Shown in pieces: positions 37,680 through 49,179 of a stretch of DNA of 64,000 bases. The notes under the pieces were generated by a model, which saw only the letters and a program-made list of their open reading frames with translations, was not told the origin of the DNA and did no database searches. Source of the stretch: Acidobacteriaceae bacterium (lineage in GTDB: Bacteria > Acidobacteriota > Terriglobia > Terriglobales > Acidobacteriaceae); assembly GCA_028283655.1 (NCBI GenBank), contig JAPWKE010000003.1, positions 1,550,001 to 1,614,000 on the forward strand, in the 5' to 3' direction. The translations under genes and the position numbers were made by a program. Within the stretch, counting starts at the first letter, position 1; every line of letters begins with the position of its first letter.

Positions 37680-37892
37680 GTGCCGGACCAGAGCCTAAAT
37701 ACGCACGCTGATTTCGAAGAACGCACAGCACTTGCCGCAGGTGGCTATCTGCCTGCCGAGGAGATGGGTGCGTTCAAAGAACACCTCCTCGTCTGCGAGG
37801 AGTGCAGCCGACTGTACGAAGAGATGGTGGAACTCACCCTTCTGCTGCAACTCTCTTCCGAAGAGATCTTCGAGACCCCACGCAAGAAATAA
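37680..37892 (+). CDS. Small zinc-finger (anti-sigma-like) protein
   Basis: This 70-residue protein carries the ZAS motif H-x3-C-x2-C (H35, C39, C42 in HLLVCEEC) preceded by the usual AAGGYLPAEEMGAFKEH helix. It has no membrane segment, unlike most ZAS anti-sigma factors, so it would be a soluble zinc-binding regulator. It starts at a GTG with AGGAG 12 nt upstream. No sigma gene is adjacent; the only ECF sigma factor seen is at 29531. The 3' end overlaps the read-through tail of the convergent amidohydrolase gene. Confidence 0.72.
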   Translation: MPDQSLNTHADFEERTALAAGGYLPAEEMGAFKEHLLVCEECSRLYEEMVELTLLLQLSSEEIFETPRKK

Positions 37893-40800
37893 CCAAAGTT
37901 TCTCCACCTGCTGAAAGCATAACGAGAACGGCCGCCTGCGCGTGCAGGCGGCCGTTCTCGTTGTGCTGCGGAGTTGTTACTTCTTCTCTATCGTGGGGAT
38001 AGAAGTTCGCCTGCTGCCACCAGCGCTCGGGCGTCTTCTTTGCCTGCGGCCAGATTTCGTCCAGGTTGTCGCCGCTGTAGAGCATGCCGCCACGCATCAC
38101 CCAATGCACGCTGTTCGTGTTGTGGATGTCGGCGAGCGGGTTGCGGTCGAGAACGACGAGGTCGGCGAGTTTGCCCGGCTCGAGGGAGCCGAGGTCCTTC
38201 TCCAGACCGATGGCCTCTGCGCCGTCGAGGGTGGCGACGCGGAGCACCTCCATCGGCTTCATGCCGCCCATGGCCATCGCCCACATCTCCCAGTGAACCT
38301 GGAGGCCCTGCATCATGCCGTGGCCGCCCATGCCGACGATGCCGCCAGCGCGAAGGATCTTCGCGGCGTCGGCTGCCTGCTGAGGAAAGATGTACTCGTC
38401 GTCACGCGTCCACTGCATGCGCTCGGTGTCGTGTGCGAGGACGTAGGGGTCGATGAAGTGCTGGATCTTCGGGTCGTCGTGCACCTCGGTGTGTTCGAGG
38501 AAGTACTGCGTAGCCGTGGGGCCGCCGTAGGCCACGACGAGCGTGGGCGTATACGTGGTCCGGGCCTGCGCCTGCAGTTGCACGATGTCCTTGTAGATCG
38601 GCGTCTGTGGGTAGTTGTGCTCGTTCCCGCTGAAACCGTCGATGACCTGCGTGAGGTCCATGCGGGTGTCGATGCCGCCTTCGGTTGTCGGCATGGCCTT
38701 CAACTCCTGCGAGGCTTCAACCATCCACTGACGCTGCTGGCGGTCGCCCACCATATAGCTCTTCAGCAGATGCGTGCGATAGTACTGGGTGTAACGGCGG
38801 ACGGTGTCCTCGGCGTCCTTCAGCGAGTGGAAGTCGTTCTCGTGGAAGATGCCGGGGCCGGTGGAGAAGGCTCGCGGACCGAGCACCCGGCCGGTGTCGG
38901 CGAGGTCCTGGTAGGCGAAGGCGTCGATGGTGAACGTCTGAGGATCGCGGGCGGCGGTGACGCCGTAGGCAAGATTTGCCTCAAGCGGCCAGTTCTCAAG
39001 ATCAAGCACGTCGCGCCGGACCTGTGTCCAGTGGGCGTGAATGTCGATGAGGCCCGGGATGATCGTCTTGCCGGAGACATCGAGCACCTTGGCGTCCGCG
39101 GGGACAGCAACCGAACCCTGTGGGCCTACGGCCATGATGCGATCGTGCGTGACGACGACGTCGGCGTTTTCGATGACCTGATCGCCGTTCATCGTGATGA
39201 CGCGTGCGCCGCGCAGGACAACGCTTCCCTCAGGCATGGCACGCGGCTCTTCGACACGCAGGAAGGTGTGCTGCGTATCCAGCGTTGCGGCTTCCTTGGC
39301 GCTGGCTGCAGGTGTCTTCTTTTTTCCGTCTTCCGCCTTCGCAGAGAACTCCTGCGGGGCTTTCGCGACCTTGTCCGCATCGGCGCTTTCCGCCGCGATG
39401 ACCGTGGCGACGGGAATGCGGAAGAGAGTGGCCCCAGTGGTCCAGTAGATCTGCTGACCGTCCGGCGACCAGCCGATGTCGTCCACGCCTTCGACGCTGA
39501 CGCGCTTGCCAGCAAGGCTGGGCTTCATGGGATCGAACTCAACGGCGGGGCCGCCGATGCGGGGCAGATCCACGAGCCAGGCTTGATGGTTCACCAACGC
39601 CACGGCGCGCGTGCCGTCGGGGCTTGGTTCGACCAGCGTGGCGTTGATCAACTCCTTGGCACCCTGCACGTCCCTGGCCTTGACGACCATGAGTTCGCGC
39701 ACGTCACTGCCGTCGCGGCGCATGGAGATCAGGCCCTTGGGGCCGTCTGCGTAGATCCGGTCAGAACCGTTGACGAAGCGCGGACGGATGATGCCGCGAG
39801 CAGGCGTGAGGACCTGCGCCTTGCCGCCGTTCGCGGGAACGCTGACGAGGTCCGTGCCGGGGACGATGTTGACGCCGTGGAACATGTACTCCACACGACG
39901 CTCGCGGCGCGACTCCAGCGACGCACGCAGCGAGAGGATTTCATTGCCGCTGGGGGACCAGACGGGATCGCTGAAGAAGCTGGTGCCGTCGGTCAGGCGG
40001 ACGGGATCGGCGCCTTCGACGGGAGCCTTCCAGATGGCACCACCGGCTTCAGCGTCCCAGGTGACGTAAGCGAGGGTTTTGCCATCGGCAGACCAGGCTG
40101 GCTGGAACTCTGCTGCGTCGCTCTTCGTCAGGCGACGCGCTTTGCCTGTGGCGACATCCGCCACGAAGACGTGCGCCAGAGAGGAGAACGCGACCCACTT
40201 GCCGTCGGGCGAAAGCGTGGCGTCGGAGGTGATGCGAGCCACAACCGGGCCTTCTTCCACGCGATGCGCGGAGTGAACGAGCGGACCGAGTTCCTGCTTT
40301 ACGTCTGCGGTGAACGGGATCGGCGAGGCCTTGCCCGTGGCGACGTACACGCGATGCAGCTTGCCCCCGTAGGAGACGATGATCGCCGAGCTATCCGGGG
40401 TGAATGCGTAGCCCGGCAGCAGATCGCGCGTGCCGATGCCCTCCTGCTCGTCGCGGTCGATGGGATAAGCGAGCCAGTGGTCTTCCCCGGTCGCGAGGTT
40501 CCTGGCCTTCAGTCCGGATCTTGCGTTGAGACGAGTGCCAAAGACCATCCACTTGCCATCGGGCGAGATGCGCGGACGAATCGCGGAGCCCTGCTCGTCG
40601 GTGATGACGTCGTCGATGCCGGTGGTGGTGTCGCGGCGAACGATCTGCCAGAGGGGAAAGACAGCGTTATAGCCAAAGAGGCCCTTCCGCTGGCTGTAGT
40701 AGATGTAGCGGCCGTCGGGCGACTCCACGGCGCTGGAGACGTTCAGTTGCTGACCGCTGGGCATATTCGGCGTGGTCGCAGCCTTTGTGATCTGCACACC

Positions 40801-41343
40801 GTTTCCGCCGAGCACGTCATACATCCAAAGCTCGCGGCCGCCAAAAACGTCGGAGGTCTTTTCGACCAGGATGTACTTTCCATCGGGCGTCCACTCGGGG
40901 GAGACCCAGCCGGTCTGACGGTCCTTGGTGAGAGCGCGCGCGGCTGTGCCGTCGGTGTTCGAGATCCAAACGTTCTGTGCTCCGTCGCGATCGCTGACGA
41001 AGACAAGCTGCTTGCCGTCCGGCGAGTAGCGCGGCTGGGCGTCGTACGCCATGCCCGTCATCAGTGGCCTGGCTTCGCCGCCGGTGATGGGGAGCGTGTA
41101 GAGATCGCCAAGCAGTTCAAAGAGGATGGTTTTGCCGTCGGGCGACAGATCGAGGGAGATCCATGTGCCTTCGTCGGTGGTGAAGTGGATCGTGCGCGTC
41201 GACTTCAACGAGAGCGGCTGCGGCACGAGACCCTTCTCCTGTGCCAATCCAACTGTTCCTGAAGCGCTAACCGCAATTAGAGCCAAAGCTGTGCAAGCGC
41301 GGCTGAGGCCACGCAAAGCGAACGGTCCATTCATGGTGTTCAC
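37834..41343 (-). CDS. Giant secreted beta-propeller/amidohydrolase fusion with an abnormal C-terminus
   Basis: This 1169-residue protein has a signal peptide (ALALIAVSASGTVGLAQ) and two sets of PD40/TolB-like propeller strands (repeated SPDGK motifs, residues about 50-620). A C-terminal amidohydrolase domain follows: GARVITMNGDQ, PGLIDIHAHWTQ with the metal HxH, AGGIVGMGGHG, and the family end LGSLEPGKLADLVVLDRNPL. After FYPHD the frame continues about 50 residues through a perfect terminator stem into the neighbouring gene. Removing one base near 37989 would end it at DEKK and a TAA at 37977. The start may be GTG 41343 (AGGAG just upstream) or ATG 41334. The substrate is unknown. Confidence 0.85.
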   Translation of the reverse strand: MNTMNGPFALRGLSRACTALALIAVSASGTVGLAQEKGLVPQPLSLKSTRTIHFTTDEGTWISLDLSPDGKTILFELLGDLYTLPITGGEARPLMTGMAYDAQPRYSPDGKQLVFVSDRDGAQNVWISNTDGTAARALTKDRQTGWVSPEWTPDGKYILVEKTSDVFGGRELWMYDVLGGNGVQITKAATTPNMPSGQQLNVSSAVESPDGRYIYYSQRKGLFGYNAVFPLWQIVRRDTTTGIDDVITDEQGSAIRPRISPDGKWMVFGTRLNARSGLKARNLATGEDHWLAYPIDRDEQEGIGTRDLLPGYAFTPDSSAIIVSYGGKLHRVYVATGKASPIPFTADVKQELGPLVHSAHRVEEGPVVARITSDATLSPDGKWVAFSSLAHVFVADVATGKARRLTKSDAAEFQPAWSADGKTLAYVTWDAEAGGAIWKAPVEGADPVRLTDGTSFFSDPVWSPSGNEILSLRASLESRRERRVEYMFHGVNIVPGTDLVSVPANGGKAQVLTPARGIIRPRFVNGSDRIYADGPKGLISMRRDGSDVRELMVVKARDVQGAKELINATLVEPSPDGTRAVALVNHQAWLVDLPRIGGPAVEFDPMKPSLAGKRVSVEGVDDIGWSPDGQQIYWTTGATLFRIPVATVIAAESADADKVAKAPQEFSAKAEDGKKKTPAASAKEAATLDTQHTFLRVEEPRAMPEGSVVLRGARVITMNGDQVIENADVVVTHDRIMAVGPQGSVAVPADAKVLDVSGKTIIPGLIDIHAHWTQVRRDVLDLENWPLEANLAYGVTAARDPQTFTIDAFAYQDLADTGRVLGPRAFSTGPGIFHENDFHSLKDAEDTVRRYTQYYRTHLLKSYMVGDRQQRQWMVEASQELKAMPTTEGGIDTRMDLTQVIDGFSGNEHNYPQTPIYKDIVQLQAQARTTYTPTLVVAYGGPTATQYFLEHTEVHDDPKIQHFIDPYVLAHDTERMQWTRDDEYIFPQQAADAAKILRAGGIVGMGGHGMMQGLQVHWEMWAMAMGGMKPMEVLRVATLDGAEAIGLEKDLGSLEPGKLADLVVLDRNPLADIHNTNSVHWVMRGGMLYSGDNLDEIWPQAKKTPERWWQQANFYPHDREEVTTPQHNENGRLHAQAAVLVMLSAGGETLVISCVGSRRSLRKRVAAEG
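37924..37959. terminator. Perfect 16-bp terminator hairpin inside the read-through tail
   Basis: GAGAACGGCCGCCTGC pairs perfectly with its complement across a GCGT loop. It sits between the expected end of the amidohydrolase gene (37977) and the zinc-finger gene and is now inside the extended reading frame. On the minus strand TTCTCGTTATGCTTT follows. Confidence 0.75.
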
Positions 41344-41541
41344 GGTCTCCTGACAAGTAGTGGGAGGGTGCGCTCCGCGAACTGCTACTGGCAGAAGTAG
41401 CAGCCTCGCGGCGCAGAGTCAACGCCCGATCTATCGCTTATCGACATTTGCCCGCGCGGGCCTGGGGTAAGCCCTACCGGGAGAGCCGGATAGAGGCTGC
41501 CGGGGAGCAGCGATTTCCCACAGAAATTCATCTTCAGAATC

Positions 41542-41570
41542 TTGACAAAACGGGCTATGAATATTTATAC
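41542..41570 (+). promoter_or_regulatory. Sigma-70-type promoter of the arginine operon
   Basis: TTGACA (41542-41547) and TTATAC (41565-41570) are 17 bp apart, a near-consensus promoter. Transcription should start near 41577. The -10 lies inside the ARG box, so ArgR binding would block polymerase. Confidence 0.7.
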
Positions 41571-41573
41571 ATA
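41556..41573 (+). promoter_or_regulatory. ARG box (ArgR operator)
   Basis: TATGAATATTTATACATA matches the 18-bp ARG-box pattern (TGAAT, four A/T, ATTCA with A/T-rich flanks) except for one base in the second arm. It overlaps the promoter -10 and lies about 95 bp upstream of argR, consistent with autorepression of the whole operon by arginine-loaded ArgR. A second tandem box was not convincing. Confidence 0.65.
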
Positions 41574-41587
41574 AGGAGTGGATTTTT

Positions 41588-41632
41588 ATGCACCGTGACG
41601 CATTTTCGGCGTCACGTTTTTGTTTTGCCTGA
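41588..41632 (+). CDS. Possible arginine-operon leader peptide, 14 codons
   Basis: An ATG nine bases after AAGGAG opens a 14-codon frame, MHRDAFSASRFCFA, ending in TGA at 41630-41632. It has two CGT arginine codons (3 and 10) and lies exactly across the terminator hairpin and its T-tract. Its position between promoter and argR suggests a leader peptide sensing charged tRNA-Arg. Caution: the predicted transcription start near 41577 falls inside AAGGAG, so the ribosome-binding site may be only partly transcribed. Too short for statistics. Confidence 0.35.
   Translation: MHRDAFSASRFCFA
41594..41626 (+). terminator. Leader terminator/attenuator in front of argR
   Basis: An 8-bp perfect stem CGTGACGC / GCGTCACG with a 7-nt loop is followed by TTTTTGTTTT, a textbook intrinsic terminator. 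It lies after the promoter and 42 bp before the argR start, so it would end most transcripts unless it is prevented from folding. Confidence 0.7.
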
Positions 41633-41667
41633 AATCAGTGTCGATTCGCGGAAAGGAGCGCATAAAG

Positions 41668-42111
41668 ATGAAACAACAACGTCACAGCGCTATCCGCGAT
41701 CTGCTGGTGAAGAGCTCGGTTGCCAGCCAGGATGTGCTTCGCCGCAAGCTGGCGCAGCGCGGCATCCACGTCACGCAAGCGACGCTCTCGCGCGACATTA
41801 AAGAGCTGAACCTGCTGAAAGGCCAGGCAGGGTATGCCCTGCCTGCGTCGTTTGCCGTGGAAGAGGACGATGATGAGCCTGAGCTTGCTGATGTGCTCGG
41901 GAGCTTCGGCCTTGAGGTGCGGCAGGCGCAAAACCTGCTAGTTTTTCTGACCACCACTGGCGGCGCGCAGCCTATCGCCGCTCATATTGATTACGAGGAG
42001 TGGCCCGAGGTCGTTGGCACGATTGCCGGCGACAATACCGTCCTCCTCGTTTGCCCGGACAACAAGCAAGCAACGGCCCTGAAGGCCCGCCTGGACTCAT
42101 ACATTGCCTAA
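41668..42111 (+). CDS. argR: Arginine repressor
   Basis: This 147-residue protein is the arginine-responsive hexameric repressor. The N-terminal winged helix has the recognition segment GIHVTQATLSRDIKELNL. The C-terminal arginine-binding and oligomerisation domain has TTGGAQPIAAHID and the signature GTIAGDNTVLLVCPD. I chose the ATG at 41668 with AAGGAG at 9 nt. It is the first gene of the arg operon, overlaps argC by 8 bp, and has an ARG box in its own promoter. Confidence 0.95.
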   Translation: MKQQRHSAIRDLLVKSSVASQDVLRRKLAQRGIHVTQATLSRDIKELNLLKGQAGYALPASFAVEEDDDEPELADVLGSFGLEVRQAQNLLVFLTTTGGAQPIAAHIDYEEWPEVVGTIAGDNTVLLVCPDNKQATALKARLDSYIA

Positions 42112-43174
42112 CGCTACGCCCAATTCGCTCCGCGTCGCCGTCGCGGGTGTGACCGGTTATGCCGGTGCTGAACTCGCCCGCATTTTGCTCGACCACCCGC
42201 GCTTCCGCACGCAGGCACCGATCTTTCTTGGCCGTCCGGCGAGCGAAGGCGGCGCGGCTATCGCGCTGACGTCGCTGCATCCGCAGCTCTCCGGTCTGCC
42301 GAATACGGATGGCCTTTCTGTGATTCCCTTCGATTGGAACGAGTTGCAGCGCGAAGGCGTGGAGTTGCTCTTCCTGGCGACGCCGCATGAGCAGTCGCGC
42401 GAGTGGGCGCAGCAGGCGCTGGCGCACGGCATCCGCGTCGTGGACCTTTCTGCCGCGTGGCGGCTGGACACGCCGGCGTATCGCGCGATCTACAAGTTGG
42501 AGGACACGCCTGCGACCGACGCGCTGCAGACGGAAGCGGTCTACGGCTCGCCGGAGTTGCATGGCGCAGAGATTGCCAAGGCGCGGCTGGTGGCCAACCC
42601 AGGCTGCTATGCGACCAGCGTGATCCTTGCGCTGTCGCCGTTAGTACGCGCCAATATCGTTGATCTATCCGCAGGGATTATTGCGGATGCAAAGTCTGGT
42701 GTTTCCGGCGCGGGGAAGGCTCCCTCCGCCACCACGCACTTCATGTACGCGGCGGACAATCTTTCGGCGTACGCGGTCTTCGGCCATCGCCACACGGGCG
42801 AGCTGTATGAACAGCTCCAGCTGCAGCCGGACCAGATCCAGTTCACGCCGCACCTGCTGCCGATTCCGCGCGGCATTCTTTCAACGGTGTATGTGCGCTT
42901 TGCGGAGCCGCAAACTTTGATGTCGGTGCAGGCGCTGTTCAACGAGTTCTACCGCGATGCTCCGCTGGTGCGTGTGCGACAGAGCCCGATGCTGCCGCAG
43001 ATCCAGCATGTGGTGCGGACGAGCTTCTGCGATATCGGCTTCCAGCTTTCGCCAGACGGCAAGCGCGCGGTCATCATCGCCTGCCTAGATAATCTGTTGA
43101 AGGGCGCTGCCTCGCAGGCGGTTGAGAATATGAATCTGATGGCCGGATGGCCGCAACAGGAGGGCCTGATCTAA
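42104..43174 (+). CDS. argC: N-acetyl-gamma-glutamyl-phosphate reductase
   Basis: This 356-residue NADPH-dependent enzyme reduces N-acetylglutamyl phosphate to the semialdehyde. It shows the N-terminal dinucleotide fold VAVAGVTGYAGAELARILL and the active-site VANPGCYATS with the catalytic Cys. SGVSGAGKAPS and GHRHTGELYEQL with the conserved His follow, and NLLKGAASQAVENMNLM ends the protein. It starts with a TTG that overlaps the end of argR by 8 bp, which implies translational coupling. Confidence 0.95.
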   Translation: MPNATPNSLRVAVAGVTGYAGAELARILLDHPRFRTQAPIFLGRPASEGGAAIALTSLHPQLSGLPNTDGLSVIPFDWNELQREGVELLFLATPHEQSREWAQQALAHGIRVVDLSAAWRLDTPAYRAIYKLEDTPATDALQTEAVYGSPELHGAEIAKARLVANPGCYATSVILALSPLVRANIVDLSAGIIADAKSGVSGAGKAPSATTHFMYAADNLSAYAVFGHRHTGELYEQLQLQPDQIQFTPHLLPIPRGILSTVYVRFAEPQTLMSVQALFNEFYRDAPLVRVRQSPMLPQIQHVVRTSFCDIGFQLSPDGKRAVIIACLDNLLKGAASQAVENMNLMAGWPQQEGLI

Positions 43175-43410: not shown

Positions 43411-44193
43411 ATGAAATTCGTCATTAAACTCGGCGGAGCCGGTCTGGAAAATCCCACCACGCTTGCGCTCGCTGCAAAGTCACTCGCAGAGCTCGTCGCG
43501 GACGGGCATAAGGTCGCTGTGGTTCACGGCGGCGGCACGCAACTGACCAAGCTGCTCGCACAGCTTGGCAAGAAGAGCGAGTTCGTTGCCGGCCTTCGCA
43601 TCACCGATGCGGAGACTCGCGATGCTGCGCTAATGGTTCTGGGCGGCCGCGTGAACAAGACGCTGGTTGCAGCGCTGAACAAGGCTGGCGTTTCGGCGAT
43701 GGGCCTTACGGGCGGCGATGGACACGTCTTCAAGGCGCGGAAGAAGCACACCGAGCATGACCTCGGTTTCGTGGGCGAGATTGCGGCGACCGATCCCAAG
43801 TGGCTCGACGCGATCTGGGCGCTGGGTGCGATTCCTGTGATCAGCTCGATTGCTCTCGGCTTCGACGGCGAGTACTACAACATCAACGCCGACGAGATGG
43901 CTTCGGCGTGCGCGGTGGCGACGAAGGCGGATGCGCTGGTGTTTCTCACCGACGTTCCGGGCGTGAAGGGTGCAGACGGCGAAGTAATGCGCTGGCTTTC
44001 GCTGAAGGATGTACCCGAGTTGCAGAAGCAGGAAGTGGTCTCCGGCGGGATGCTGCCGAAGCTGAACGCCTGCAAGGACGCCCTGGCACATGGCGTGAAG
44101 CGCGTGCGTATTCTTCCGGCGGATGCAGCAGACCTGCTGCCGTCCTTCAGCTCGCAGCGCATCGATCGCGGAACGGAAGTTCTAGCGGCGTAG
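43411..44193 (+). CDS. argB: Acetylglutamate kinase
   Basis: This 260-residue amino-acid kinase phosphorylates N-acetylglutamate. It starts with the lysine-containing KFVIKLGGAGLENP and has VVHGGGTQLTKLL. It continues with GLRITDAETRDAALMVLGGRVNK, NINADEMASACAVATKADALVFLTDVPGV and the terminal VSGGMLPKLNACKDAL. It is of the shorter, E. coli-like length, without the N-terminal helix of arginine-inhibited kinases. This agrees with control at the transcription level or at the acetyltransferase. Confidence 0.95.
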   Translation: MKFVIKLGGAGLENPTTLALAAKSLAELVADGHKVAVVHGGGTQLTKLLAQLGKKSEFVAGLRITDAETRDAALMVLGGRVNKTLVAALNKAGVSAMGLTGGDGHVFKARKKHTEHDLGFVGEIAATDPKWLDAIWALGAIPVISSIALGFDGEYYNINADEMASACAVATKADALVFLTDVPGVKGADGEVMRWLSLKDVPELQKQEVVSGGMLPKLNACKDALAHGVKRVRILPADAADLLPSFSSQRIDRGTEVLAA

Positions 44194-44263
44194 TCGCTAC
44201 GCAGCGAATGATTCTTTGCGCCGATGGCGCGACCTACAGATTGTGACAAAAGGAACGCACACC

Positions 44264-45511
44264 ATGAGCCTGACTGAACTGCAAGCTGCCGAATCGAAGC
44301 TCCTGCTTAATACCTATGCCCGCTACCCGCTGGAGATGACGCGCGGCGAAGGCGTGCGCCTGTTCGATGCCGAGGGCAACAGCTATCTCGATCTGCTGTC
44401 GGGTATCGGTGTTAGCGCGCTAGGGTACGGGCATCCGGCTATCACGGCGGCGATCACCAAGCAGGCGGACACGCTCATCCACACGAGCAACCTCTTTTAC
44501 AACGCAGTGACGACAGAGTTGGCGCTGCGCTTGACGGAGACGACCGGACTCGACCGCGTGTTCTTCTGCAACTCCGGCACAGAGGCCTGGGAGGCTGCGA
44601 TCAAGCTGGCACGCGCACACGCGTTGCTGCTACGCAACGAAGGCAAACAGATCGGCACGAAGATTCTTGCGCTGGAGCATAGCTTCCACGGCCGCACGAT
44701 CGGTGCGGTTTCAACGACGCACAAGGCGGCGTACCGCGAGCCCTTTGCACCGGTTATGCCGGACGTCGTCTTCATTCCGCATAACGATGTGGCTGCGCTG
44801 AAGGCGACCTTCGACAGCTCGTTCTGCGCGATTGCGTTTGAAGTACTGCAGGGTGAGGGCGGGATCAACCCGATCTCGCAGGAGTTCCTGCAGACCGCGC
44901 GTGAGCTTTGCGACAACAGCGGCGCATTGCTGCTGCTTGATGAGATTCAGTCCGGCATGGGCCGCACCGGCAAGTGGACCGCGTATCAGCACTACGGCAT
45001 TCAGCCTGACGTGACGACGTTGGCCAAGCCGATTGCAGGCGGAATTCCGATGGGTGCGATGCTCTGCACCGAAGAGGCTGCGCGCGCGTTCACGCCGGGG
45101 ATGCATGGTACGACTTTTGGCGGCAATCCGTTTGCGTGTGCGGTAGCTGTAGCGGTGGTCGACACGATCAAGCAGGACAAGCTGCTCGACCATGTCACTG
45201 AGCTTGGCGCATACTTCAAGCAACAGCTTGTCGAGCTCAGCAAGAAGCACACCGCGATTGTCGATGTACGCGGTACAGGCTTCATGCTCGGCGCAGAGGT
45301 TGCGTCTGCTGATCTGGCCAAGGACGTTCACGCCACGATGATGAACGAACACCGCATCCTGCTGAACCGCACGCACGAAACAGTGCTGCGTTTTCTGCCG
45401 CCGTACCTGATTACCAAGGCTGACGTCGACCAGACGATCGCCGCGCTTGATACTCTCTTCGCAGCAGCAGCGACGAAGAGCCAAACCGTCGCAGTTACGG
45501 CTGCATCGTAG
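44264..45511 (+). CDS. argD: Acetylornithine aminotransferase
   Basis: This 415-residue class III PLP aminotransferase converts N-acetylglutamate semialdehyde to N-acetylornithine. Motifs are YLDLLSGIGVSALGYGHPAI, FCNSGTEAWEAAIKLAR, HSFHGRTIGAVSTT, LLDEIQSGMGRTGK with the cofactor-binding Asp, and the PLP lysine in TTLAKPIAGGIPMGA. The ATG at 44264 has AAAGGAA upstream; the longer frame upstream has no support. Confidence 0.94.
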   Translation: MSLTELQAAESKLLLNTYARYPLEMTRGEGVRLFDAEGNSYLDLLSGIGVSALGYGHPAITAAITKQADTLIHTSNLFYNAVTTELALRLTETTGLDRVFFCNSGTEAWEAAIKLARAHALLLRNEGKQIGTKILALEHSFHGRTIGAVSTTHKAAYREPFAPVMPDVVFIPHNDVAALKATFDSSFCAIAFEVLQGEGGINPISQEFLQTARELCDNSGALLLLDEIQSGMGRTGKWTAYQHYGIQPDVTTLAKPIAGGIPMGAMLCTEEAARAFTPGMHGTTFGGNPFACAVAVAVVDTIKQDKLLDHVTELGAYFKQQLVELSKKHTAIVDVRGTGFMLGAEVASADLAKDVHATMMNEHRILLNRTHETVLRFLPPYLITKADVDQTIAALDTLFAAAATKSQTVAVTAAS

Positions 45512-45528
45512 ACCGCATATTGCGGTCT
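45510..45528 (+). repeat. Intercistronic hairpin argD-argF
   Basis: AGACCGCA and TGCGGTCT form an 8-bp stem with a TAT loop starting at the last base of the argD stop codon. No T-run follows closely, so it may be an RNA-stability element rather than a terminator. Confidence 0.5.
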
Positions 45529-45567
45529 GCACGTTGATTTTTATATTCAGTTTCGGAGCAACAAAAC

Positions 45568-46620
45568 ATGGATACCAAGACCATCACCATGCCGACTCGC
45601 GGCTTCTCTTCCAAGGCAGCCGCTGCTATTCAGTCCGACACACGCTTTACCGAGATAGCCAAAGGCCTCTCCGGTCGCGACCTTACCTCAATTGCCGACT
45701 TCTCGGCCGAAGAGCTTGCTGCGGTGCTTGAGCTGGCGCACGCGGTGAAGGCGCAGCCGGAAGAGTTTCGCCACGCGCTCGACGCCAAGCAGATGGTCAT
45801 GTTCTTCGAGAAGGCCTCGCTGCGCACACGCCTGACGTTTGAGGCTGCGATGAACACTGTCGGTGGCAATGCCATCTTTGTCGACCAGACGAAGGAGCCG
45901 CTCGGACAGCGCGAATCGATTCCCGATGTTGCTCGCAACCTCGAGCGCTGGATGAACGTTATCGTTCTCCGCACCTTTGCGCATGAGACCGTTACCGAGA
46001 TGGCCGCGAACGCCAAGGTGCCGGTGATCAATGCGCTCTCGGAGCTGGAGCATCCGTGCCAGGCTGTTGCCGACTTCATGACGCTTGAAGAGCGCTTTGG
46101 CGATCTGACGGGCCTGAAGTTCACCTATGTGGGCGATGGCAATAATGTTTGCCACTCGCTGATGCTGGCAGGCGCGCTGCTTGGTGTCCATGTGACCGTG
46201 GCGACGCCGAAGGGCTTCGAGCCCGACCTCGACATCATCCACAAGGCGATTGAACTGGCCGAAGAGCATGGTGGCACGATCACGCTGACGCACGATGCGG
46301 CCAAGGCTGCGATTGGTGCAGACGCGATCTACACCGATGTCTGCACGTCCATGGGCCAGGAGGCTGAGGCGACCAAGCGTGCGCCTATCTTCAAGCCCTA
46401 CCAGGTCAACGAAGAGCTGATGGCGCAGGCGCAGGAGTCCGCCGTCTTCATGCACTGCCTGCCGGCTCATCGCGGCCAGGAAGTTACCGATGCGGTGCTC
46501 GACAGCGAACAGTCGGTGGTCTTCGACCAGGCGGAGAATCGTATGCACGCGCAGAAGGCGATTACGCTGATGCTGCTTGGCGGCGCGAAGCGGCTGCCTA
46601 AGAATAAGGTACGTCGGTAA
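45568..46620 (+). CDS. argF: Ornithine carbamoyltransferase
   Basis: This 350-residue enzyme joins carbamoyl phosphate and ornithine to form citrulline. It has the carbamoyl-phosphate loop FEKASLRTRLTFE, the HPCQAVADF segment, the ornithine loop TSMGQEAE and the active-site HCLPAHRGQEV. The SMG and HCLPA motifs argue for ornithine rather than acetyl- or succinyl-ornithine as substrate, although the SLRTR variant of STRTR is noteworthy. The N-terminus is about 40 residues longer than in E. coli. Confidence 0.93.
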   Translation: MDTKTITMPTRGFSSKAAAAIQSDTRFTEIAKGLSGRDLTSIADFSAEELAAVLELAHAVKAQPEEFRHALDAKQMVMFFEKASLRTRLTFEAAMNTVGGNAIFVDQTKEPLGQRESIPDVARNLERWMNVIVLRTFAHETVTEMAANAKVPVINALSELEHPCQAVADFMTLEERFGDLTGLKFTYVGDGNNVCHSLMLAGALLGVHVTVATPKGFEPDLDIIHKAIELAEEHGGTITLTHDAAKAAIGADAIYTDVCTSMGQEAEATKRAPIFKPYQVNEELMAQAQESAVFMHCLPAHRGQEVTDAVLDSEQSVVFDQAENRMHAQKAITLMLLGGAKRLPKNKVRR

Positions 46621-46626
46621 TTTCAC

Positions 46627-46658
46627 TTGCATGCTCTCTTCAAGAAGAGAGCATGCAA
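46627..46658 (+). repeat. Perfect 14-bp intercistronic hairpin argF-lectin
   Basis: TTGCATGCTCTCTT pairs perfectly with its complement across a CAAG loop, six bases after the argF stop. There is no T-run after it, so complete termination is unlikely; it could stabilise upstream mRNA or serve as a processing site. Confidence 0.6.
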
Positions 46659-46717
46659 ATGCTTCGGTTCATGTCATTCCCTGCTTAGCCTGACACGGAG
46701 TTTCACACCACGACTGT

Positions 46718-47023
46718 ATGACGATCACCGGCTCAAGGACGATCAACCTCCAACATCCTTCGATCAAAGAGGAGTTGAAGTTTGGCATCCTCGAATTCGC
46801 AGGAAAGAAGTCTGCGAAGGTTCCTGTCGTCTTCGAGTCAGCTTTTCCGGTTCCTCCCTCTGTGCTGGTCAGCCTCTCGGGAGTATGGAACCGCCAGGGT
46901 AGCTCCATCTGCGAACTGACCGCAGCCAACATTACCGTCGAGGGCTTCGATATCGTGGTTACGATAGGCCCTGAAGACAGCAACCTATCCCTTACCGCGA
47001 GCTGGCTCGCGACTAACGCCTGA
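46718..47023 (+). CDS. H-type-lectin-like domain protein
   Basis: This 101-residue protein has no signal peptide. Its sequence resembles the H-type lectin domain (Helix pomatia agglutinin type): VVFESAFPVPPSVLVSLSGV, then ICELTAANITVEGFDIVVTI and the final LSLTASWLATN. These correspond to the PxVxVSL strand, the NIT-x-GF turn and the SWLA end of that fold, which binds GalNAc-type sugars as trimers or hexamers. The ATG at 46718 has only a weak ribosome-binding site. Lying between argF and argH is unexpected. The family assignment is by eye and should be taken as probable. Confidence 0.6.
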   Translation: MTITGSRTINLQHPSIKEELKFGILEFAGKKSAKVPVVFESAFPVPPSVLVSLSGVWNRQGSSICELTAANITVEGFDIVVTIGPEDSNLSLTASWLATNA

Positions 47024-47045
47024 TTCGAAGGAAGCGAAGTAATCC

Positions 47046-48542
47046 ATGTCCAGTACCACCGAACAACCCGCTCTCAAAATGTGGTCCGGCCGCTTCCGCG
47101 AGCCGCTTGATCGTACCTTCGAGCAATGGCAGCGCAGCTTCCCTTTTGACTGGCGTTTGCTGCCGCAGGAAGTTGCCGCGAGTCAGGCGCATGCGCGTGC
47201 GATTGCCGCGGCTGGCGTGCTTACTCCGGAAGAGCTGGACAAGATGCTCGCGGGGCTGGAAGCTGTTGGACAGCGTCCGCTGAACTGGTCGCATCGCATC
47301 TCGGCGACCTCGGGCATCCCCGATTACGAGACTTCAAATCAGCAGATCGCGGCCGCTATCGTCGCGTCTGCACCGCAGGCTGAGGACATTCACCACTACG
47401 TTGAGCTTGAGCTGACGAAGGAAGTCGGTTCGCTTGCGCTGAAGCTGCACACCGGTCGCTCGCGCAACGAGCAGATTGCCACAGATATGCGACTCTTCGT
47501 GCGTGAGGCGATTGATGCCACAACGCAGGGCCTTATCCGCTGGGCCGATGCCCTGCTCGCAGTGGCAGAGCGCTCAGGCGATGACGTGATGCCCGGCTAC
47601 ACACACCTGCAGCGCGCGGAGCCTGTGCTGGTTGCCCACTGGCTGATGGCCTATGTCTCCATGCTGGAGCGCGACCTTTCGCGCTTTGCGGACGCACGCG
47701 CGCGCATGAACTTCTGCCCGCTCGGCTCAGGAGCCATTGCAGGCGCAACGTTGAAGCTCGACCGCACGATTGCGGCCAAGGCGCTGGAGTTCACCGGACC
47801 AACACCGAACTCGATGGACGCCACCAGCGACCGCGACTTCATGCTCGACTTTGCGCAGGCTGCGTCGACGCTTGGCTTGCACATCTCACGCTTTGCGGAA
47901 GAGCTGACGCTGTATGCGACCGCCGAGTTTGGCTTCGTCGATCTGCCAGAGGCGTTCTCCACGGGCTCATCCGCGATGCCCCAGAAGAAGAACCCTGACC
48001 TAACCGAGCTTGCGCGTGGCAAGAGCGGCCGTTTGCTTGGCGCATCGACTGCGCTGGCGACGATCGTAAAGGGTTTACCGCTGGCGTATAACAAGGACCT
48101 GCAGGAAGGCCAGGAGCAGATCTTCGACATTGCCGACACGCTTGCTGGCTTGCTGAGTGTGCTGCCAAACTTCACGCGAGCGTTGAAGTTCCGTGGCTGC
48201 GCGATGGCTGTTGCGGCTGAGACCGGCTACCTAAATGCGATGGCCGCAGCGACGTATCTTTCGAACAAGGGTGTACCGTTCCGCAAGGCGCATGAGATCG
48301 TTGGCAACGCGGTACGCATGGGGCTGGAGCGCAACCTTGAGCTCAATGCCCTGCCGCTCGCGGATCTGCAGACACTGTCGCCTGAGTTCAGCGAAGATAT
48401 CTTCGACGCCATCGACATCCGCGCAACGCTCGACTGCCATGACAACGCAGGAGGCACAGCAGTATCCCAGGTTCACGCCGCACTGCATGCCTCCAAGGCT
48501 CGCATTGCACTGCTTACTGCAAAGGAGGGCGCACTTGGCTAG
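47046..48542 (+). CDS. argH: Argininosuccinate lyase
   Basis: This 498-residue fumarase/aspartase-superfamily enzyme splits argininosuccinate to arginine and fumarate. Visible motifs are MWSGRFREPLDRTFEQW, LHTGRSRNEQIATDMRL, GYTHLQRAEPV, LGSGAIAGATL, the superfamily signature GSSAMPQKKNPD with the catalytic Ser loop, and YNKDLQEGQEQIFD. It is about 40 residues longer than E. coli ArgH. It overlaps the acetyltransferase gene by 8 bp. The partner argG is not in the window. Confidence 0.95.
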   Translation: MSSTTEQPALKMWSGRFREPLDRTFEQWQRSFPFDWRLLPQEVAASQAHARAIAAAGVLTPEELDKMLAGLEAVGQRPLNWSHRISATSGIPDYETSNQQIAAAIVASAPQAEDIHHYVELELTKEVGSLALKLHTGRSRNEQIATDMRLFVREAIDATTQGLIRWADALLAVAERSGDDVMPGYTHLQRAEPVLVAHWLMAYVSMLERDLSRFADARARMNFCPLGSGAIAGATLKLDRTIAAKALEFTGPTPNSMDATSDRDFMLDFAQAASTLGLHISRFAEELTLYATAEFGFVDLPEAFSTGSSAMPQKKNPDLTELARGKSGRLLGASTALATIVKGLPLAYNKDLQEGQEQIFDIADTLAGLLSVLPNFTRALKFRGCAMAVAAETGYLNAMAAATYLSNKGVPFRKAHEIVGNAVRMGLERNLELNALPLADLQTLSPEFSEDIFDAIDIRATLDCHDNAGGTAVSQVHAALHASKARIALLTAKEGALG

Positions 48543-49116
48543 CGATCCACATATTCGCGCCCATAAGGCCCGCCTTCAAGACGCGGAAGATATCTTCAAC
48601 CTTGTGAACTCGCTCTCCGGCGACGGTACCCTGCTACGCCGGTCCTATGCTGAGGTCTGCGAGAACATTCGCGACTTCACCGTCGTCCATCGCGCGACAC
48701 CTGAGGGAGAGCAGACCTTCCTTGGCTGCGGCGCGCTTCATCTTTACGGCCCGCACCTCGCAGAGGTGCGCTCGATTGTCGTGAAGCCGGAGTTCCGTGG
48801 CCTTGGCGCAGGCGATGAACTCATCGAAGCCCTGCTGCTCGAGGCCGAAGAGCACAAGGTGCTTAGCGTCTGCCTATTTACGCGCATCCCGACCTACTTC
48901 ACGCATCTCGGCTTCCGCGAAGCCGATCGCGATGCGATGCCCGACAAGATCTACAAGGACTGTCAGACATGCCCGCGTCTCTATGCGTGCGATGAAGTTG
49001 CGATGGTCAAAGGCCCGCTGCCGAACGTTGCTGTTCTTGGACCGAAAACCGTGCAACGTCCAGAGCTTGTGCAGATCAACGCTGTAGCAACGCCGCAGCT
49101 TACTGGAACCCACTAA
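48535..49116 (+). CDS. argA: Short-type N-acetylglutamate synthase (GNAT)
   Basis: This 193-residue GNAT acetyltransferase probably makes N-acetylglutamate, the first step of arginine synthesis. It resembles the stand-alone GNAT-domain synthases: ARLQDAEDIFNLVNSLSGDGTLL, then HLAEVRSIVVKPEFRGLGAG with the acetyl-CoA loop, CLFTRIPTYFTHLGFREAD and a YKDCQTCPRLYACDE segment with three cysteines. The TTG start at 48535 is set by AAAGGAGGG five bases upstream; the open frame further up is a shadow of argH. It lacks the amino-acid-kinase domain of E. coli ArgA, so classic arginine feedback through that domain is absent. Confidence 0.85.
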   Translation: MASDPHIRAHKARLQDAEDIFNLVNSLSGDGTLLRRSYAEVCENIRDFTVVHRATPEGEQTFLGCGALHLYGPHLAEVRSIVVKPEFRGLGAGDELIEALLLEAEEHKVLSVCLFTRIPTYFTHLGFREADRDAMPDKIYKDCQTCPRLYACDEVAMVKGPLPNVAVLGPKTVQRPELVQINAVATPQLTGTH

Positions 49117-49136: not shown

Positions 49137-49179
49137 AACAGCGCACACGCCCAAAGAGGATGTGCGCTGTTCTTTTTTT
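49137..49179 (+). terminator. Rho-independent terminator of the arginine operon
   Basis: An 11-bp stem (AACAGCGCACA with TGTGCGCTGTT) is followed by CTTTTTTTG, 20 bp after the last arg gene. Confidence 0.88.

Follow-up and report, generated by a model that had tools for sequence, protein, structure and literature searches.

The arginine operon argR-argCBDF-argH of this Acidobacteriaceae bacterium is probably controlled by an ArgR-repressed promoter with an intrinsic attenuator ~16 nt further on that works without a leader peptide. We based this view on the window, i.e., the whole 64,000-nt stretch of DNA that was analyzed, and on a comparison of argR leaders from 121 genomes. Together, these sequences point to a conserved terminator behind an ArgR operator, which is most likely regulatory. 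Between 41542 and 41668, the elements of the leader follow one another in the order -35, ARG box 1, 3 bp, ARG box 2, 8-bp hairpin, TTTTTGTTTT, ~40 nt, and the argR start (Table 1).

Table 1. Features of the arginine operon and its leader, with positions in the window
Feature	Position	Strand	Remarks
-35 element TTGACA	41542..41547	+	perfect match
ARG box 1 TATGAATATTTATACATA	41556..41573	+	1 mismatch to the E. coli consensus
ARG box 2 AGTGGATTTTTATGCACC	41577..41594	+	3 mismatches to the E. coli consensus; also found by the family matrix
14-codon frame MHRDAFSASRFCFA	41588..41632	+	regarded as a side effect of the hairpin and ARG box 2 and not as a gene
Intrinsic terminator/attenuator (predicted)	41594..41626	+	stem 41594-41601/41609-41616, T tract 41617-41626
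argR	41668..42111	+	opens the operon; passes the Pfam cut-offs of PF01316 and PF02863
argC	42104..43174	+	ORF with TTG start; TIGR01850 above cut-off
argB, argD, argF, H-type lectin ORF, argH	43411..48542	+	ORFs and profile matches

Promoter, operator, and terminator in the window

A preliminary description of this DNA had placed a near-consensus promoter ahead of argR and, between the two, a terminator hairpin with a T tract, and all of these are present in the sequence. Besides its -35, the promoter has a -10 element (TATACA, 41566-41571) that matches at 4/6 positions, with a spacer of 18, and lies inside ARG box 1; our simple promoter scan returned nothing here because it requires a T as the last -10 letter. 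From promoter geometry only, transcription is predicted to start near 41578, which falls in ARG box 2, as does an ATG at 41588-41590. The two ARG boxes, which were absent from the preliminary description, are separated by 3 bp and overlap both the -10 element and the predicted start. Two 18-bp boxes ~3 bp apart that overlap a promoter have the layout of an ArgR operator, and we infer that arginine-bound ArgR would bind both predicted boxes. Although nothing else in the 64 kb matches WNTGAATWWWWATTCANW at ≤3 mismatches, the count alone is weak since the chance expectation is 0.79 and 15/100 shuffles had two. The assignment therefore relies on position, spacing, and conservation, rather than on match count alone. 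A search of the organism's own genome, limited to ≤2 mismatches per box to TGNATATTTATNCA so that more divergent pairs are invisible to it, found argR to be the only upstream region with a box pair. A second box-like pair (C3:3588074 and 3588095) was set aside because it lies within the 364-aa ORF of locus L132.

The hairpin (41594-41616) consists of an 8-bp stem (CGTGACGC) closed by the loop ATTTTCG and is followed by the tail noted above. In the window as in its relatives, we thus see a GC-rich stem leading directly into a T tract, as in an intrinsic terminator. On a d'Aubenton-type scale, in our own implementation, this terminator scores 23.3, compared to 7.4 for a structure at 49139-49169, past the final gene of the cluster, and 17 structures score >0 in the 64 kb when both strands are counted. 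The RNA from 41578 to 41624 has a predicted energy of -16.4 kcal/mol (z -3.10), with only 2/200 shuffles being equally stable, while the whole leader (41575-41668) is not more structured than its shuffles (z -0.89, 37/200).

Conservation among argR leaders

Upstream regions were collected from the best 108 of 220 genomes with an argR match and from 13 further genomes, and these 121 genomes gave 123 argR copies (loci L001-L126 minus the duplicates L051, L074, and L075). The resulting set of 121 leaders keeps L042 and L057, which have a poor second box, and excludes L045 and L046, which are second argR copies (in genomes G158 and G236) 59% identical to the argR of the window and devoid of upstream ARG boxes. 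A pair of ARG boxes with a gap of 2-4 bp was found upstream of 119/123 argR copies, using a matrix built from these same regions, and the gap is 2 bp in 69, 3 bp in 47, and 4 bp in 3 of the 119.

A terminator score >0 was reached by 51/121 leaders and by 0/363 dinucleotide shuffles, and with the threshold of >-20 that we use to call a leader terminator-bearing, the numbers are 68/121 and 3/363, respectively. At this same threshold, the signal was seen in 2/121 leaders on the opposite strand and in 2/242 windows taken upstream of the boxes on both strands. Strong hairpins, whatever their tail, are found in 83/121 leaders, and in 67 of these 83, at least four of the next eight bases are T. Although stem letters vary between genera (the stem of the window gives way elsewhere to CGCGGCC and GCGCGGTCC types), the hairpin and T tract persist. 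This turnover was judged from individual hairpins, since a MAFFT alignment (14 of 21 selected g1 leaders) misplaced the stem. The nearest relatives that we found, L002 and L031, with ArgR 88 and 86% identical, have terminators scoring 11.2 and 25.9, respectively. These findings show that the terminator is conserved well beyond chance and, on sequence grounds, is under selection.

Its distribution is uneven, however. At least one terminator-bearing leader occurs in 17/25 genera, and by genus code the counts at >-20 are 22/25 in g1, 8/9 in g34, 8/11 in g9, 5/10 in g45, 5/12 in g32, and 4/8 in g66, with none found in the 11 g35 and 8 g63 leaders. The terminator is therefore dispensable, being absent from whole genera (g35 and g63) and from 7/12 g32 leaders. 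Several leaders of g9 and g45 have a weak T tract (TTTCGATTT), while the g1 leaders below the threshold are L019 (-21.0) and L041 (-30.3), where a hairpin is followed by an interrupted tail, and L040, which has no hairpin. A -35 element (≤1 mismatch) at a distance of 15-19 nt from the position that TATACA takes in box 1 was found in 54/68 terminator-bearing leaders vs. 21/53 others, an association with a Fisher p of 1e-5 that is too small because the leaders are related. This co-occurrence of the terminator with a well-placed -35 suggests that it may temper a strong promoter.

A possible mechanism

We propose the following sequence of events. Arginine-bound ArgR would block initiation by occupying both ARG boxes, which overlap the -10 element and the start. 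Once ArgR has gone, polymerase would initiate near 41578 and, within ~16 nt, form the GC-rich hairpin and then the U tract. Some polymerases would terminate, releasing an RNA of ~45 nt, while the remainder would continue into argR and the downstream arg genes. No leader peptide would be made, and termination would set a ceiling on operon output. Over the 68 terminator-bearing leaders, the median predicted lead from start to hairpin is 19 nt (16 nt in the window), and the median predicted length of the terminated RNA is 49 nt. We infer that termination occurs in vivo and may be constitutive. For the latter, the chances appear about even, and it is the most likely mode of action because neither a riboswitch or T-box nor a translated sensor would fit into a lead of ~16 nt.

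Alternatively, the attenuator might be regulated by an unrecognized factor or an alternative fold (e.g., Nus factors, Rho, or a metabolite), which would be a regulated form of the same explanation and which we consider rather unlikely. In its favor, a weaker competing fold of ≤-4 kcal/mol that could form before the 3' arm is made is predicted in 53/68 leaders, using 5'-arm bases in 52 of these 53. The very short lead speaks against it, as does Rfam, whose three hits for 41300-41800 had E values of 0.41-0.96 and stayed well short of the gathering scores, with no riboswitch or T-box match.

The hairpin might also be a 5' stabilizer of the mRNA or a barrier, not a terminator. Its closeness to the predicted 5' end would fit such a role, and the RNA of the semipalindromic box 2 itself makes a small hairpin at this end. 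However, a stabilizer needs no T tract, yet a T tract follows most of the strong hairpins, and the strand specificity of the signal (68/121 vs. 2/121) likewise argues against this reading, which we regard as improbable.

The short reading frame

The preliminary description had proposed that a ribosome slowed at the third codon of a 14-codon frame (MHRDAFSASRFCFA) would cover the 5' stem and let polymerase through, so that attenuation would be added to repression. This frame does run across the hairpin to a stop at 41630-41632, and its third and tenth codons are CGT. Furthermore, an ATG is found at the same place in 51/68 terminator-bearing leaders, 43 of these 51 frames encode Arg at one or more of the next 12 codons before the stop, and Arg codons are above letter shuffles (1.80 per 12 codons vs. 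a mean of 1.39, sd 0.14). These points are offset by several others. The ATG belongs to ARG box 2, being its letters 12-14, and a G at letter 14, which gives ATG, occurs in 85/121 leaders. Since the ATG is present in 51/68 leaders with and 34/53 without a terminator (Fisher p 0.23), it does not clearly track the terminator. The other two frames match the ATG frame in Arg codons, with 46/51 and 37/51 having at least one and with 2.02 and 1.67 per 12 (n = 51), and all three real frames exceed the shuffles because GC-rich hairpins yield CGN codons whatever the frame.

Nor is the frame itself maintained. The ATG is missing from 17/68 terminator-bearing leaders. These 17 include L002 and L031 (the nearest relatives), another four from g1, and every one of the eight g34 leaders with a terminator. 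L002 and L031 read TATTCA at this place while keeping the boxes, hairpin, and T tract. Where the ATG is present (n = 51), frame length ranges from 2 to 59 codons, and in g1, a stop follows the fourth codon in six frames, of which three contain no Arg. Inspection by eye of alternative starts (ATG, GTG, and TTG) in 24 g1 leaders revealed no frame kept across species. Hence, of the hallmarks of a trp-type attenuator, we found neither a conserved short frame upstream of the terminator nor an in-frame enrichment of Arg control codons (n = 51).

The geometry of the leader points the same way. As the preliminary description had itself cautioned, the predicted start falls in AAGGAG (41573-41578), which weakens the translation part of its proposal: because the -10 puts the start near 41578, this Shine-Dalgarno (SD) motif is not in the predicted RNA. 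Codon 3 could hardly be a sensor, because a ribosome starting at 41588 would already cover the 5' stem, whose first base is just 6 nt away. Moreover, the competing fold predicted for the leader of the window (-2.9 kcal/mol) leaves the 5' arm untouched. Comparing argR upstream regions thus gave the very outcome that the preliminary description had named as speaking against its proposal, i.e., a hairpin kept while the frame is lost. The ribosome-stalling scheme is largely refuted and in our estimation highly improbable. The broader idea of attenuation added to repression stays plausible, given a conserved terminator at an ArgR-type promoter, while its sensing of arginine through a translated leader does not. 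ATG-like letters within ARG boxes (TATGCA) can mimic leader frames, which calls for caution.

Least credible of all is that the terminator halts transcription arriving from upstream of the arg promoter: terminators commonly insulate genes, but the upstream gene (37834-41343) runs the opposite way, and the terminator sits downstream of the operon's own predicted promoter.

Position of the argR start codon

The hairpin can sit between an SD-like motif (mostly GAGG) and the argR start, as seen in g66, g34, g70, g18, g48, and g36. When argR starts ≤25 nt from the hairpin end, 14/24 leaders have an SD-like 4-mer ahead of the hairpin, compared to 5/48 leaders with a more distant start (p 3e-5, uncorrected for relatedness). 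This count used a looser terminator cut-off of >-30, giving 73 rows, one of them without a called start. The start lies 4-12 nt after the hairpin in 14 loci, 13 of which use TTG and the other GTG. The complete layout, with GAGG or AAGG, the hairpin, and then a start 4-12 nt on, can be seen in L067, L052, L064, L070, L077, and L081, and again in L086, L087, L088, L090, L094, and L099, where the start is TTG except for the GTG of L087. In these 12 loci, the hairpin thus falls within the ribosome-binding site. The hairpin might accordingly have two jobs, as a terminator in nascent RNA and, in RNA that has escaped termination, as a fold that removes the spacer and brings the SD to the start codon. 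We find this doubtful, but if true, one element would set both read-through and ArgR translation.

More distant loci were viewed for boxes and start position only, namely 22 of the same family (L161-L164 and L175-L192), two of another family (L193-L194), and ten of other classes or unplaced in the phylum (L165-L174). In 18 of the 22 same-family loci, the ATG of argR begins no earlier than 7 nt before box 2 ends and no later than the base right after it. These 22 loci were taken whatever their box scores, and the second box scores <2 in L161, L162, L164, and L190, and the first box in L179. The ATG abuts or overlaps box 2 in L163, L175-L179, L182-L186, L188, and L190-L192. This suggests that the argR mRNA of such loci may be nearly leaderless, with its start codon in the operator.

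The operon and its neighbors

Gene order and strand make it probable that argR and the arg genes form one transcript. Besides its Pfam matches, argR scores 118 bits against NCBIfam TIGR01529, under the 130.45-bit cut-off. A TTG start is possible for argC at 42104, where it would overlap the end of argR (42104-42111), and translational coupling is possible. The H-type lectin domain ORF (PF09458; 101 codons, 46718-47020, + strand) lies between argF and argH within the arginine cluster. Downstream of argH is a GNAT acetyltransferase gene (48442-49113, + strand), which, at a guess, could encode a short N-acetylglutamate synthase. A gene for a chloramphenicol acetyltransferase family protein (PF00302; 49207-49860, - strand) adjoins the cluster.

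Discussion

The trp, his, and leu operons have leader-peptide attenuators with an intrinsic terminator upstream. The arginine operon described here resembles them in having an intrinsic terminator ahead of an amino acid operon but differs in that it has no conserved leader frame and no in-frame enrichment of control codons. Promoter-proximal termination that yields short RNAs, as predicted here, is reportedly also a property of the E. coli greA leader (GraL), which does not belong to an amino acid operon and is not known to have an ArgR operator.

The closest precedent that we found is the carA/P32 leader of Pseudomonas syringae. In the parts of PMC4997734 that deal with this leader in strain DC3000, carA has a single promoter with an ArgR site and an intrinsic terminator between the start, mapped 118 bases upstream of carA, and the first gene. 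The same account places a mapped 3' end just past the terminator, gives no start codon for a leader peptide, and reports that expression was raised by arginine and that disrupting the stem-loop raised reporter expression. The window has the same combination of an ArgR-site promoter and a terminator before the first gene, without a leader peptide, although termination here is predicted. It differs from carA in that the first gene is argR and in that its ArgR is unrelated to the Pseudomonas protein, which in P. alloputida is described as a member of the AraC/XylS family (PMC10963909). In the E. coli arg regulon, as outlined in PMC6640053, operators consist of two 18-bp ARG boxes, 3 bp apart, that overlap the promoter. 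The predicted operator in the window has this same arrangement but is followed by a terminator, of which the account of the E. coli operators makes no mention. In a limited literature search, we noticed no arginine attenuator combined with ArgR beyond that of P. syringae carA.

Taken together, these findings suggest that, in many genera of one bacterial family, the arginine operon pairs an ArgR operator with a terminator that would need no leader peptide, and a leader-peptide story gives way to a testable alternative. The system has a clear operon and a predicted promoter, and its many natural variants, among them genera without the terminator, allow comparison.
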